A stretch of 64,000 bases of DNA, from the NCBI RefSeq assembly GCF_014204325.1, contig NZ_JACHKT010000015.1, positions 1 to 64,000 on the forward strand, written 5' to 3'. The stretch is from Arcicella rosea. GTDB lineage: Bacteria; Bacteroidota; Bacteroidia; Cytophagales; Spirosomataceae. This document shows, in pieces, positions 55,361 to 63,906 of this stretch. How positions within the stretch are numbered: position 1 is the stretch's first letter; every line of letters begins with the position of its first letter. The position numbers and the translations under genes were made by a program. The notes beneath the pieces are model-generated. The model ran no database searches and had not been told where the DNA came from. It was given only the letters and a program-made list of their open reading frames with translations.

Positions 55361-56452
55361 CTATGCGACATTTTTTTGCGTTTGGGATTGCAGTGGAAAT
55401 CCTTTTTTTGGGAAACGAACAAAAAGATTGAAACAGAAAGCCAGACCGAAGGGAACGTCCAAATCAAAATTTACATTATTTAACTGGCTTGTTTTTCCTC
55501 CTTTAAAAATATAATCATCAGGAAAAGATTGCAGTCTTGCACTTTCTCTTGCAGTTGGCACACGGTCAAACTCATAATGAAAATGATGATTGTGTCCTGT
55601 GTCAATTGTAAAACTCGGTTTTTGACTATTTAATCTTGTCCACGCAATATTTACTTTTCTTGTTTGATGAAGCTCTTTTGGTAAATTCTTGTAATTACCA
55701 CCATCTGGAACCATCGAAATGATTTCAATCGTTTTTTCATTATGAATTGTAATTTGATGGTTAAAAATTCCTTCGGAGTTTTGTCTCATCATTTTTTGAA
55801 AATCATTTTGAGGTTTGATAGGATACTGACTTCCATCATCTAAAGTGTCTTTAGGTAAATCTGAAATAGCTTCTTTTGACGTAATATGTTTTTCTGTTGT
55901 CGGTTCGGGAAAAATAAATTCTTTATTATTTTTTGTACCAACAAAAAATGCTCTTTTCCTATTTTGGGGAATACCATAATCTGAAGCCAACAAAACTTTG
56001 TAAACAATGGTATAACCAAGTTCTTCGAAATCTTGAATAATGCTATCTTTTACAATACCATTTCCCATAGAAATAATATTTGGAACATTTTCCATGACAA
56101 AAACTTTTGGCTTGTAAAAATCAACAAAACTCACAAATGATTTGTAAAGTTGGTTGCGTTCATCATCAACAATTCTTTTTCCTGCAATAGAGAAACCTTG
56201 ACAAGGTGGACCTCCTATAATTACATCAACTTCTTTAATGCCTGTTAGCTTTGAAATTTCTTTGGGTGTTTCTTTAAATAAATCGGCTACTATTCCTTTT
56301 GCGTTTTTATGTGTGTTTTCAAATGTTACAATTGCATCTTTCCAATGGTCAACACCCAAAAGTACTTCGTATCCTGCTTCGATGAATCCATACGAAAGTC
56401 CACCGCAACCACAAAATAAATCTATTACTGTTGGTTTATTTGTCATTATCAA
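55361..56452 (-). CDS. DNA cytosine-5 methyltransferase with replaced C-terminus
   Basis: C5-methyltransferase of 363 residues with motif I VIDLFCGCGGLSYGF, IV GGPPCQGFS, VI ENVPN, VIII PQNRKRAFFVG and IX ARESARLQSFPDDYIFKGG. After GGKTSQ the expected motif X (G-N-x-V-P-P) is absent; instead the frame runs through LNNVNFDLDVPFGLAFCFNL and a tail rich in F, P, K and Q, which looks like translated intergenic repeat sequence rather than enzyme. Motif X helps form the SAM pocket, so activity is doubtful. It overlaps the controller gene by 17 bp and leads directly into the endonuclease gene. Start at 56452 (or the ATG at 56446). Confidence 0.88.
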   Translation of the reverse strand: MIMTNKPTVIDLFCGCGGLSYGFIEAGYEVLLGVDHWKDAIVTFENTHKNAKGIVADLFKETPKEISKLTGIKEVDVIIGGPPCQGFSIAGKRIVDDERNQLYKSFVSFVDFYKPKVFVMENVPNIISMGNGIVKDSIIQDFEELGYTIVYKVLLASDYGIPQNRKRAFFVGTKNNKEFIFPEPTTEKHITSKEAISDLPKDTLDDGSQYPIKPQNDFQKMMRQNSEGIFNHQITIHNEKTIEIISMVPDGGNYKNLPKELHQTRKVNIAWTRLNSQKPSFTIDTGHNHHFHYEFDRVPTARESARLQSFPDDYIFKGGKTSQLNNVNFDLDVPFGLAFCFNLFVRFPKKGFPLQSQTQKNVA

Positions 56453-59924: not shown

Positions 59925-60332
59925 TCAATTTTTTCTCCTCAATCGTATTGACTCATACAAGTCATTTTTCACGACAATTTCTTCCGTTGCAATCAAAGAG
60001 TATTCTTCATTAGGGAAAAATATATCCCAAATCCAAACAAACAACTTAATATGTTCTGAAGGAGTATTAAAAGGTAATAGATTTGACTCGATTAGTCTTC
60101 CAAAATCAATTTTTGTTTTTTTTAGGTAAAATACTAAACTAATTTTAACCTTTACTTTATAAGCATCAGTCGATTCTTCATAGTATGGATAAAGATACTC
60201 TTTTAATATTTTTTTTACCTCTTGCTCATTATCGGCATCTAAATATTGTAAACTCCTGAATTCATCTAAATCTGCTCCACCTGCTAAAGGACTAAGGATA
60301 TCATGTAATAAATATTGGTTTACCTCTATCAT
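59925..60332 (-). CDS. Hypothetical protein, 135 aa
   Basis: Small soluble protein with no recognised family. It starts IEVNQYLLHDILSPLAGGAD, has a central charged part and a C-terminal TPSEHIKLFVWIWDIFFPNE with hydrophobic helix that is too polar for membrane insertion. It may be an accessory or immunity-like protein, but no context supports a role. It is separated from rtcB by a terminator. Confidence 0.6.
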   Translation of the reverse strand: MIEVNQYLLHDILSPLAGGADLDEFRSLQYLDADNEQEVKKILKEYLYPYYEESTDAYKVKVKISLVFYLKKTKIDFGRLIESNLLPFNTPSEHIKLFVWIWDIFFPNEEYSLIATEEIVVKNDLYESIRLRRKN

Positions 60333-60388: not shown

Positions 60389-60426
60389 AAAAACGCCTGA
60401 TAAGCAATCCTATCAAGCGTTTTTTA
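60389..60426 (-). terminator. Terminator of the Ro60-Yrl-rtcB unit
   Basis: AAAACGC-TGATA pairs with TATCA-GCGTTTT around an 8-nt loop (one unpaired base in each arm), T tracts on both strands. It ends 1 bp before the rtcB stop codon. Confidence 0.85.
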
Positions 60427-61965: not shown

Positions 61966-62018
61966 TGTTTAGTTTAAGTTTGAATCATTTATTAAAATAG
62001 GTGTAGAGATATTTACAA

Positions 62019-62135
62019 GGCAAAAAACGAAAAGAGAAAGATTTGCTCTACCAACTGAGCTACTACTTGTGTAAAGTAAGTGGGACTCGAACCCACGACC
62101 CAACCGCCCCGAAGCATCTCTTTTCTACGGCACTC
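62019..62135 (-). ncRNA. Y-RNA-like (Yrl) unit 3, circularly permuted tRNA mimic
   Basis: Minus-strand order: conserved 5' motif GAGTGCCGTAG (62125-62135); closing-helix strand GAAAAGAGA (62117-62125); GCTTCGGGGCGG; GGTC like a tRNA variable loop; T-arm GTGGG-TTCGAGT-CCCAC (62080-62096); 6-bp acceptor-like helix capped by a 5-nt loop (62063-62079); T-A at the place of tRNA bases 8-9; D-arm GCTC-AGTTGGTA-GAGC (62045-62060); closing strand TCTCTTTTC (62029-62037), a perfect 9-bp match to the first; then GTTTTTTG as a possible terminator. This is the architecture described for YrlA RNAs, which bind Ro60 and mimic tRNA. Confidence 0.85.
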
Positions 62136-62139
62136 ATTT

Positions 62140-62240
62140 CTTTGAGGTAACAGGCATCAAATGTTTTATTAAACTGGGACTCGAACCCAAAGCCTAACGC
62201 TTTTACCACGAAGTAACATTTGACTAACGACACTCATTTT
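62140..62240 (-). ncRNA. Y-RNA-like (Yrl) unit 2, T-arm only
   Basis: Minus-strand order: 5' motif GAGTGTCGTTAG (62224-62235); closing strand TCAAATGTT (62215-62223); ACTTCGTGG; T-arm TTGGG-TTCGAGT-CCCAG (62174-62190); short TTT/AAA hairpin; closing strand AACATTTGA (62157-62165), a perfect 9-bp match. No D-arm is visible. After it, TTTGA and TCAAA could form an alternative hairpin. Whether it is a separate RNA or a module of one long transcript is unclear. Confidence 0.65.
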
Positions 62241-62377
62241 TACTGGAGCAAAAATCTATACCAAGTGCGGGGCATTGCATTGCTGGAGTCGAACCAAGAA
62301 GACCTCATTGAATTTCTCAATCTCGCCATTCCTCCCCTATATGGTTGCTACGAAGTAACTCGGTATTCTACGGCATC
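62240..62377 (-). ncRNA. Y-RNA-like (Yrl) unit 1, longer variant
   Basis: Minus-strand order: 5' motif GATGCCGTAG (62368-62377), starting 12 bp after the Ro60 stop; closing strand ATACCGAGT (62358-62366); TACTTCGTAGCAACC; an extra hairpin ATTGA-GAAAT-TCAAT; T-arm TTGG-TTCGACT-CCAG (62283-62298); closing strand ACTTGGTAT (62258-62266), a 9-bp match with one G-U pair. A degenerate D-loop-like TTGGTATAGA overlaps the last strand. It is less tRNA-like than unit 3. Confidence 0.6.
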
Positions 62378-62388
62378 CTGTAAAGTCT

Positions 62389-63906
62389 TTAAAGCTCTAT
62401 TTTATGAATTGTTTCTAAGACAGATTTTTGTGATTCAAGTGCTTCGAGAACATCAAAAATCTTTTCAGACCAACCTGCTATCAAGAATACATCTTCTTGT
62501 GGAGTATTGACTGGCATTTGTCCATATCCTGTTAAATCAAAAAGGTACAATTTTGCATTGGGTGCTATCTTTTTGTAAAGCCTCCAACAGTTTGATAGCG
62601 TGTTCTCGCCTTGTGTATCCCATAATTGCATATCTGTAAATATCATTACTTTATCTGCTTGATATTTACGGCTGATTAAATCTTGAATTACCAAGTGTCC
62701 ATTTGTTGCGTAACCCACTTCACCTTCTCTGCGGTAAAAAGCATCAACATTGGCTAATATTCCTTGTGAAGGTAACTGAACTACTTTCCAAGTGTCACCA
62801 AATATACCTGTCACAACGTTTTTACATTTGGCTTGTAAAATCATTCCCAAAAGCAAACCTATATCATAAAACCTAACCTTACTTTTAGGAGAAATATTTT
62901 TTTGCATCGACCCCGAAACATCACAAGCAATCACCACTTTTACTTCATTTCCAAAACCTGACAAACTACTTGTACTGTGTTTGATGGCTTCTTCTAAAGT
63001 ATTCAGTACTAATGAAACATTTCCATGTTTTACTTTCGATAATTCACGATAAGCTGCTAAAAACCTGAACGGTAATTGTTTAGAATTGGCAACAGCTTTT
63101 GGATTTGATAAATAATTAAGAGCCTTTTGAAGATATGCTTCTTCTACGTTGGCTTCTAAAATATTTCTTAGGTTTCTCAACATAGCCATGTAGCCAATCT
63201 TCTCACTTTCAATAAGTTCTTGCCATTTTTCTTTAAAAGCGGCTTTCTTTTCTTTGTTATTATTGAAATGTTTTTGTCCTAAAGCTGAAAGTTCAGTTTC
63301 CCAAGTATAAGGAACAGCCAAAGTATTCTTGGCAATTTTATCAAAAAGTAATTGTTGTTCAGGACTTTTTGGCTTAGGGTGTACCAAAAACAAAGCATCT
63401 TTCAGTTTAATACCGTTTGACTGATTGTATTTAGCAAACTGGTATTCATCAAAATTATTAAAAGCACCCGATAAGCCCTTTTGAATTTGTTTTGATAATT
63501 TATTGAGTTGCTTTGTGCCAGTACGAGCATTACTTTTTTGATAGTATGCCAATACTTCTACTATTTCATCTGGTCTGACTACGATTTTTTCAATCGTTTT
63601 TCTGACCAAGCTATTTCCTTGAGTAACTTTTGCTAATTCAACAGACAGTAAAACAGGTACTGTTCTCAAGTGCATTTGCAAACGCACATAAACAGCAAGT
63701 TTAGCAACAAACTCAGGACTTACTTTTTTCATCAATTCCTGAATTCTTTTTTGTCTGCGATTTTCATCTTCATAATAGGTAGCCTCAATTATACTTGTCA
63801 CAGAAGCTGAATACAATTCCATTTCAGGAGTAATTCTGTAAGTTTTCGAACCTTCATAATTTTTAGAAAGGTTAAGAGCATCTTTAAACCAATTAAATTT
63901 CATCAT
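62389..63906 (-). CDS. rsr: Ro60-family TROVE-domain RNA-binding protein (Rsr)
   Basis: Bacterial orthologue of the Ro60 autoantigen. The 505-residue protein has the ring-shaped HEAT-like TROVE domain (about residues 5-310; typical segment GYMAMLRNLRNILE at 238-251) and a C-terminal von Willebrand A domain whose metal site begins ACDVSGSMQ (D329-x-S331-x-S333) with later ATNGHL and MIFTDMQLWD. Ro60 proteins bind Y RNAs on the outer ring surface and damaged or misfolded RNA ends in the hole, and act in RNA repair and decay with partners such as PNPase. Y-RNA-like sequence lies directly downstream, then rtcB, all on one strand. The gene starts with tandem ATG codons (63906/63903). Confidence 0.95.
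   Translation of the reverse strand: MMKFNWFKDALNLSKNYEGSKTYRITPEMELYSASVTSIIEATYYEDENRRQKRIQELMKKVSPEFVAKLAVYVRLQMHLRTVPVLLSVELAKVTQGNSLVRKTIEKIVVRPDEIVEVLAYYQKSNARTGTKQLNKLSKQIQKGLSGAFNNFDEYQFAKYNQSNGIKLKDALFLVHPKPKSPEQQLLFDKIAKNTLAVPYTWETELSALGQKHFNNNKEKKAAFKEKWQELIESEKIGYMAMLRNLRNILEANVEEAYLQKALNYLSNPKAVANSKQLPFRFLAAYRELSKVKHGNVSLVLNTLEEAIKHSTSSLSGFGNEVKVVIACDVSGSMQKNISPKSKVRFYDIGLLLGMILQAKCKNVVTGIFGDTWKVVQLPSQGILANVDAFYRREGEVGYATNGHLVIQDLISRKYQADKVMIFTDMQLWDTQGENTLSNCWRLYKKIAPNAKLYLFDLTGYGQMPVNTPQEDVFLIAGWSEKIFDVLEALESQKSVLETIHKIEL

Follow-up and report, generated by a model that had tools for sequence, protein, structure and literature searches.

Tandem Y RNAs with one common handle and three different heads between ro60 and rtcB in Arcicella rosea, and their anticodon-bearing counterparts in Bacteroidota Ro60 loci

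At least one Y RNA of a species reportedly contains a tRNA-like domain, a statement that goes back to Chen in 2014. The existence of bacterial Y RNAs, their mimicry of tRNA, and their position next to rtcB are already known, and the established function, in the available parts of both accounts, is tethering of PNPase and not that of a decoy (PMC7790460, PMC8394870). In humans, Ro60 is an autoantigen in lupus, and commensals such as Bacteroides thetaiotaomicron have orthologs of it (PMC11277228). A natural reference system is YrlA (RF02553) from the Salmonella rsr-yrlBA-rtcBA operon, which has been tied to cleaved tRNA or tRNA fragments (Hughes et al. 2020, PMC7790460).

The locus studied here lies in the window, i.e., the whole 64,000-nt stretch of Arcicella rosea DNA that was analyzed (contig NZ_JACHKT010000015.1), and is an RNA-repair operon of the order ro60 - Y1 - Y2 - Y3 - rtcB with a divergent WYL regulator. 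Three tandem Y RNAs on the minus strand occupy positions 62013-62384 between ro60 and rtcB and have the same direction as both genes, as in rsr-yrl-rtcBA operons (Table 1). The units are separated by linkers of 2 and 4 nt, and unit 1 begins 4 nt past the end of ro60. The ro60 product has a Pfam vWA_Ro60 score of 24.4 bits, slightly below the cut-off of 27.7, and its gene is the only TROVE gene found in the genome. The regulator (WYL/WCX, L369:8187-9197) lies upstream of ro60, outside the window, whereas RtcR, the regulator of the Salmonella operon, is not an immediate neighbor here. The ORF that follows rtcB (59925-60332) has no Pfam match, and the rtcA cyclase gene is absent as an immediate neighbor. 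The hairpin 3' of rtcB may mark the end of the operon, as suggested by its match to the terminator consensus. The array was also considered as a coding sequence, and the idea was rejected, the sole overlapping ORF of at least 60 aa (62220-62510) being on the other strand. A search for more Y RNAs elsewhere in the genome with the YrlA model gave three other matches, on contig 55, all of them tRNA genes. At a distance from the operon, the window contains a Flavo-1 RNA (55373-55451; 49.3 bits against a gathering score of 42) that overlaps an ORF on the opposite strand, by eye a DNA-methyltransferase-like one. The surrounding segment 53059-56774, where two DNA-methyltransferase-like ORFs, an HNH-like ORF, and a small helix-turn-helix-like ORF are seen by eye in a row, looks like a restriction-modification island.

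Table 1. Features of the ro60-rtcB locus, in positions of the window
Feature	Position	Strand	Basis or comment
ro60 (rsr), TROVE + vWA domain protein, 505 aa	62389..63906	-	Pfam TROVE 109.1 bits
Y RNA unit 1, type A head (GGGG..CCCC, hairpins, T-arm)	62239..62384	-	type A head class
Unit 1, outer helix	62376-62384/62239-62247	-	
Unit 1, motif	62367-62375	-	
Unit 1, inner helix	62358-62366/62258-62266	-	8 Watson-Crick pairs and 1 G-U
Y RNA unit 2, small hairpin + T-arm (62174-62190)	62143..62236	-	scanner, pairing
Unit 2, inner helix	62215-62223/62157-62165	-	9 pairs
Y RNA unit 3, YrlA type	62013..62138	-	Rfam YrlA 44.6 bits, E 1.6e-07
Unit 3, inner helix	62117-62125/62029-62037	-	9 pairs
Unit 3, T-arm	62080-62096	-	precedes the D-arm
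Unit 3, D-arm	62045-62063	-	
rtcB RNA ligase, 512 aa	60427..61965	-	Pfam RtcB 277.8 bits
Terminator-like hairpin 3' of rtcB, possible operon end	60389..60424	-	consensus scan: 16 pairs, then a T run

Each unit consists of a handle and a head. The handle runs through an outer helix, a bulged U, a G-C and a Y-R pair, a CGUA-type internal loop, an inner helix, and ACUUCG, for which unit 3 carries the variant GCUUCG. CTTCG and a T-arm with TTCGA are found in every unit of the window, and the heads are of three different kinds. The sequence-only reading had listed for each unit a motif, two 9-nt strands, CTTCG, and a T-arm; all these elements are present on the minus strand, and the 9-nt strands pair, two perfectly and one with a single G-U. 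The motif of unit 2, corrected, is GTCGTTAG, and this unit has a GU:AC variant in place of the conserved GC:GC step. Overlooked in that reading were the outer helix with its bulged U and the two further pairs, G-C and Y-R, and the true extent of the array is the one given above.

Like YrlA, the window RNAs lie beside ro60 and rtcB and have a terminal stem for Ro60. Unit 3 also has the YrlA complement of a T-arm, an acceptor-like hairpin, and a D-arm, and hence a tRNA-like domain. The covariance-model search proposed earlier for the whole array succeeded for this unit only in part, with a score under the gathering score of 69 for RF02553, and gave no match up to E = 1 for units 1 and 2. In ten array loci, no Y RNA match reached the gathering score. 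In contrast to YrlA, the array of the window has three different heads, and the arrays of relatives may contain up to 10 units and have heads with an anticodon stem-loop. Because the threshold was missed, the array is a variant of bacterial Y RNAs in the broad sense, with its adjacency to a Ro60/TROVE gene and its covarying stem formed from the 5' and 3' ends, and not a member of RF02553.

In the 423-nt stretch from rtcB to ro60, a scanner whose form was shaped on relatives and not on the window alone finds three units, whereas 3000 dinucleotide shuffles gave one unit in one shuffle. Minimum-free-energy folding of the single units against shuffles is unremarkable (z = +1.44, -1.35, -0.51). Since the folding energies are no better than those of shuffles, the evidence for the structure is comparative rather than thermodynamic. 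No array closely orthologous to that of the window was found; Ro60 relatives occur in 2 of the 8 genomes of the genus, 38 of the 222 of the family, and 94 of the 390 sampled from the order, this genome being counted in each case, and the other Ro60 copy in the genus has 56% identity. By eye, the head of unit 1 is close to a head from a Flectobacillus locus (L212), and the closing helices of the two are unrelated.

Two sets of Ro60 loci were compared: (i) 94 loci from 90 other genomes of the order, with three fragment-only genomes (G069, G155, and G299) excluded, and (ii) 80 named loci, the best 80 of 567, nearly all from Bacteroidota by title; some genomes are common to both. The pooled set contains 722 units without identical copies, including the three units of the window and those of a viral locus (L037). 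The earlier suggestion that a three-unit array is unusual did not survive this comparison. Arrays of at least three units are present in 79 of the 94 loci and in 64 of the 80 (best 80 of 567), the largest has 10 units, and units are absent from 3 of the 94 and 1 of the 80 loci. Thus, the three-unit array is ordinary, and multi-unit arrays predominate among the Bacteroidota Ro60 loci examined. The units follow the Ro60 strand, with 421 on this strand against 9 on the opposite one in the first set and 332 against 2 in the second (again the best 80 of 567).

Several observations concern the distribution of Ro60 itself. A second Ro60 lineage (L125-L131) has 41-44% identity to the window protein, and in each of the four genomes from which two Ro60 loci were fetched (G024, G040, G072, and G097), one copy belongs to this lineage and the other, on a separate contig, is closer. 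On viral contigs, an alignment-based scan gave 56 Ro60-bearing loci, and the scanner found units in 9; the window Ro60 alone as a query gave one locus. Viral or prophage contigs with both Ro60 and Y RNAs include L303, L293, L295, and L298; the largest number of units, 8, is in L303, and one of these units has a Thr-UGU loop. A fixed-string search of viral contigs was abandoned, as the matches listed are nearly all single and look like chance. Further Ro60 relatives occur on 73 plasmid records (haloarchaea, Deinococcus, Rhizobium) and 95 phage records (Brevundimonas, Xanthomonas, Caulobacter), with 22-34% identity among the matches listed (25 for each).

The claim that the array has a selected RNA structure is supported by covariation in relatives. 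Of the cells in 145 thinned handles from the array family, 94.4% are paired, as opposed to 61.1% after shuffling, with a covariation score of 0.923 against 0.260 (sd 0.009); for 42 of these handles the score is 0.947 against 0.270 for shuffles and 0.110-0.237 with slid partners. These shuffles, like the pair counts that follow, ignore shared ancestry. The outer helix with its bulged U is observed in 717 of the 722 units, the later calling of which relied on the 3' tail and the outer helix. Where neither the outer helix nor the Y-R pair was used for calling, the outer helix pairs, from the bulge outward, in 98, 98, 98, 94, 90, 82, and 73%, against 80, 79, 59, 43, 41, 49, and 43% in shuffles. 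The Y-R pair, recounted without its score term since the first scanner favored C-G and T-A, is C-G in 126, T-A in 56, and T-G in 27 of 214 units, with 5 others and no C-A, of which 33.8 were expected. The inner helix was used for calling, and its pairing is thereby favored. An inner-stem search without the tail motif was given up for poor separation (90% above the threshold against 60% of shuffled heads). The Ro60 site of vertebrate Y RNA is described as a seven-bp helix with a single bulged C (PMC4726728, in the part available), and the handle of the window type resembles it in having about 7 bp in the outer helix and a single bulged U. The upper parts differ, the tRNA-like heads being a bacterial feature. 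The idea that the array presents different RNAs to one Ro60 is the natural reading, because the genome has a single TROVE gene and the units have a common handle.

By simple rules, the 722 heads fall into 327 with a T-arm, 127 with a T-arm and an anticodon stem-loop, 126 mini units, 60 of type A, and 82 that fit no class. The anticodon test was failed by 327 of the 454 T-arm units outside type A; the heads with an anticodon stem-loop are all from relatives. At the expected place of the anticodon loop, the 7-mer equals a native tRNA loop, as taken from two genomes, in 42 of 280 T-arm units, against 0-6 at sixteen shifts, and a hairpin with U33 and R37 at exact tRNA spacing is found in 94 of 291, against 1-17 at fourteen shifts. 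In 52 of the 127 units the loop is identical to a native tRNA loop, whereas a flat model expects about 2.4% per unit. The mini units consist of the handle and an anticodon-type hairpin in 50 of 126 cases, against 10.2 (sd 3.0) in shuffles. In the window, none of the three units has a clear anticodon loop; unit 3 contains a 7-mer one mismatch off the Pro-CGG loop, without a flanking stem.

Ninety anticodon-bearing units of relatives have a recognizable D-arm and could be parsed in full. In these, the 3' half of the tRNA stands upstream of the 5' half. The acceptor pairs are formed in 90-99% (90% for the last pair), against 41-56% in shuffles, and the pairs 27-43 and 28-42 in 96 and 98%, against 42%; pair 29-41 forms in 75%, and the class definition itself requires pairs 30-40 and 31-39. 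The head is thus predicted to be a tRNA-like fold with a loop spanning the acceptor end. Because both the acceptor and the lower anticodon stems covary, the Ro60 handle would enter the anticodon stem between positions 28 and 29, and a three-way junction is deduced from the covariation. Overall, the anatomy of units and heads is well supported.

The anticodon loop diverges faster than the flanks do on average. Among near-orthologous unit pairs from different genomes, which have common ancestry and are not independent, the anticodon differs in 210 of 265 pairs where both units pass the anticodon test, U33 and R37 being fixed by the test, and in 167 of 225 where only one had to pass. In the latter set, the divergence at positions 32-38 is 0.49, 0.07, 0.63, 0.44, 0.22, 0.29, and 0.40; the average for the flanks is 0.13, against 0.63, 0.44, and 0.22 at positions 34-36, and the partner unit retains U33 in 93% and R37 in 84%. 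High divergence is also seen beyond the anticodon, at positions 32 and 38 and at one T-loop position outside the arm (0.41). Bodies that are 97-99% alike 3' of the loop may bear different anticodons; an example is provided by the heads of two loci (L097 and L104) that are 97% alike there and have the loops TTCGGGT and CTTCGGA. Thus, in relatives the loop is hypervariable in a conserved body, and U33 and R37 are mostly kept. Within arrays, the anticodons are all different in 23 of 23 loci with at least two such units, which is not significant (21.3 of 23 expected; 17% of shuffles do as well).

The neighborhood of these loci is an RNA-repair setting that leans to tRNA. Of the 176 compared loci, 79 have an RtcB cluster on the same strand as Ro60, two RlaP-type clusters are present in 21 and 18, and Hen1 in 12, the clusters being annotated by Pfam via one member each; of these repair neighbors and the WYL regulator, the genome studied here has RtcB and WYL. 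With 23 calls that overlap units excluded, 165 free-standing tRNAs were called on the Ro60 strand and 3 on the opposite one, and 21 of 175 loci have at least two of them, up to 17. In these clusters, e.g., L230, L265, L064, L253, L269, L056, and L059 and a further 14 loci, the 2 to 17 tRNAs have many anticodons. The loop equals a native loop of the two compared genomes in 81 of the 165 calls and differs in the others, as in Asp CTGTCTA from L049 and L059. Such clusters are possibly spare or nuclease-resistant tRNAs. They resemble the Anabaena trn operon, a stress-induced spare tRNA set that is under one repressor, TrcR, together with rtcB (PMC10272220). In Anabaena, however, the tRNA operon resides on a megaplasmid, away from rtcB, and the available portion of that account describes no Ro60 or Y RNA (PMC10272220).

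The preferred explanation is that Ro60 holds the RNAs of the array, beside RtcB repair, as tRNA mimics that can replace one another as decoys or baits for enzymes that cut tRNA; on the features of the sequence we give this reading an even chance. One Ro60 would bind every RNA of the array through the common handle; the heads, as imitations of tRNA, would act as exchangeable decoys or baits, competing for anticodon nucleases or being cut by them; and RtcB and its partners would mend the cut tRNA. In the window, where there is no clear anticodon loop, the heads would imitate the body of a tRNA (unit 3) or the T-arm. A wider version, more tentative and in our view possible rather than probable, is that the Y RNAs of Bacteroidota Ro60 loci form a diversifying repertoire that displays anticodons, a decoy library against tRNA-cutting toxins or defense nucleases that is coupled to repair and sometimes accompanied by spare tRNAs, with the window as a small, anticodon-poor version. 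Here, the heads on the one handle would be numerous, either tRNA-like or bare anticodon stem-loops, their loops would be swapped quickly under selection, and the coupling to RNA repair would proceed via RtcB, RlaP, and Hen1. YrlA has been suggested as a possible competitive inhibitor of an anticodon nuclease, and in the available text Salmonella YrlA is not a substrate of the nuclease tested (Hughes et al., PMC7790460); hence, the role of a cut bait is not supported for the known YrlA. Variation of the anticodon loop has likewise been proposed as an answer to tRNA-cutting enzymes in phage tRNAs that evade anticodon nucleases (PMC10264068). Those phage RNAs are, as the accessible part of the study has it, working tRNAs with altered loops (PMC10264068), whereas the units of relatives tie a tRNA body to a Ro60 handle, have a loop-closed acceptor end, and exchange the anticodon itself.

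A different and rather unlikely scenario is that the heads tether Ro60 to PNPase or other enzymes and select structured RNAs for degradation, as in RYPER, with different heads recruiting different partners. It has a precedent in the Rsr/Y RNA/PNPase complex of D. radiodurans (PMC7790460, PMC8394870, in the parts available). Type A heads (60 units in 58 loci) behave as a fixed docking head would, being conserved and, in 56 of the 58 loci, present only once, and PNPase tethering may apply to them. A stricter parse of 41 type A heads, the window's included, gives a small excess of pairing in stem s1 (95-100% against 77-95% in shuffles) and a 3-bp complement at 0.88 against 0.58 (sd 0.06); a pseudoknot of the bases after UUCG with those before CCCC, crossing GGGG/CCCC, is possible. 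An earlier attempt with RNAalifold on 55 thinned heads from a loose type A pattern, a few of them not of type A, gave a poor alignment and only a 3-bp T-stem, and was dropped. Tethering leaves unexplained, however, why the loops change faster than the head average while U33 and R37 mostly stay, and why mini units retain only an anticodon-type hairpin.

Still less probable is a role as bait and sensor, in which the ends of cut heads would be read by the divergent WYL regulator or by Ro60, so that the array reports an active tRNA nuclease and turns on repair. Salmonella RtcR responds to tRNA fragments (PMC7790460, in the text available), and a WYL regulator is divergent from ro60 in the genome of the window and in 59 of the 176 loci; the latter number, obtained with limited flanks, is also a weakness of this scenario, and fragment binding by WYL proteins is hypothetical. 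The units could also be permuted tRNA precursors, from which the handle would be excised between positions 28 and 29, with RtcB sealing the anticodon stem and trimming of the acceptor yielding a working tRNA. Permuted tRNA genes are known (PMC3978253, part of the text), RtcB is a frequent neighbor, and an anticodon stem with most positions paired would result if 27-28, themselves 96-98% paired, were joined to 29-31. Against this, mini units have no tRNA body, near-identical bodies can bear different anticodons, as described above, and in only 13 of 87 cases is the native tRNA with the same anticodon the best match to the body, with some signal left (mean relative rank 0.30). It is therefore unlikely that functional tRNAs are made from the units, and the precursor scenario as a whole is very improbable. 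Finally, decayed tRNA gene copies beside ro60 with accidental pairing, an idea that draws on the free-standing tRNA genes of some loci and the unremarkable single-unit folds, are contradicted by the covariation (0.923 against 0.260), the strand bias, and the 3000 shuffles, and are hardly credible.

In the literature, among the matches listed, we recognized neither anticodon-bearing Y RNAs nor long Y RNA arrays, and multi-Y arrays may already be described. The structural rule derived from the handle found hundreds of units, and the array would link Ro60 to tRNA damage in a large phylum. If the decoy reading is true, a single handle combined with many heads and a hypervariable anticodon loop would provide a direct and testable answer to the question why bacterial Y RNAs imitate tRNA, namely that the heads stand in for the tRNAs attacked by nucleases.
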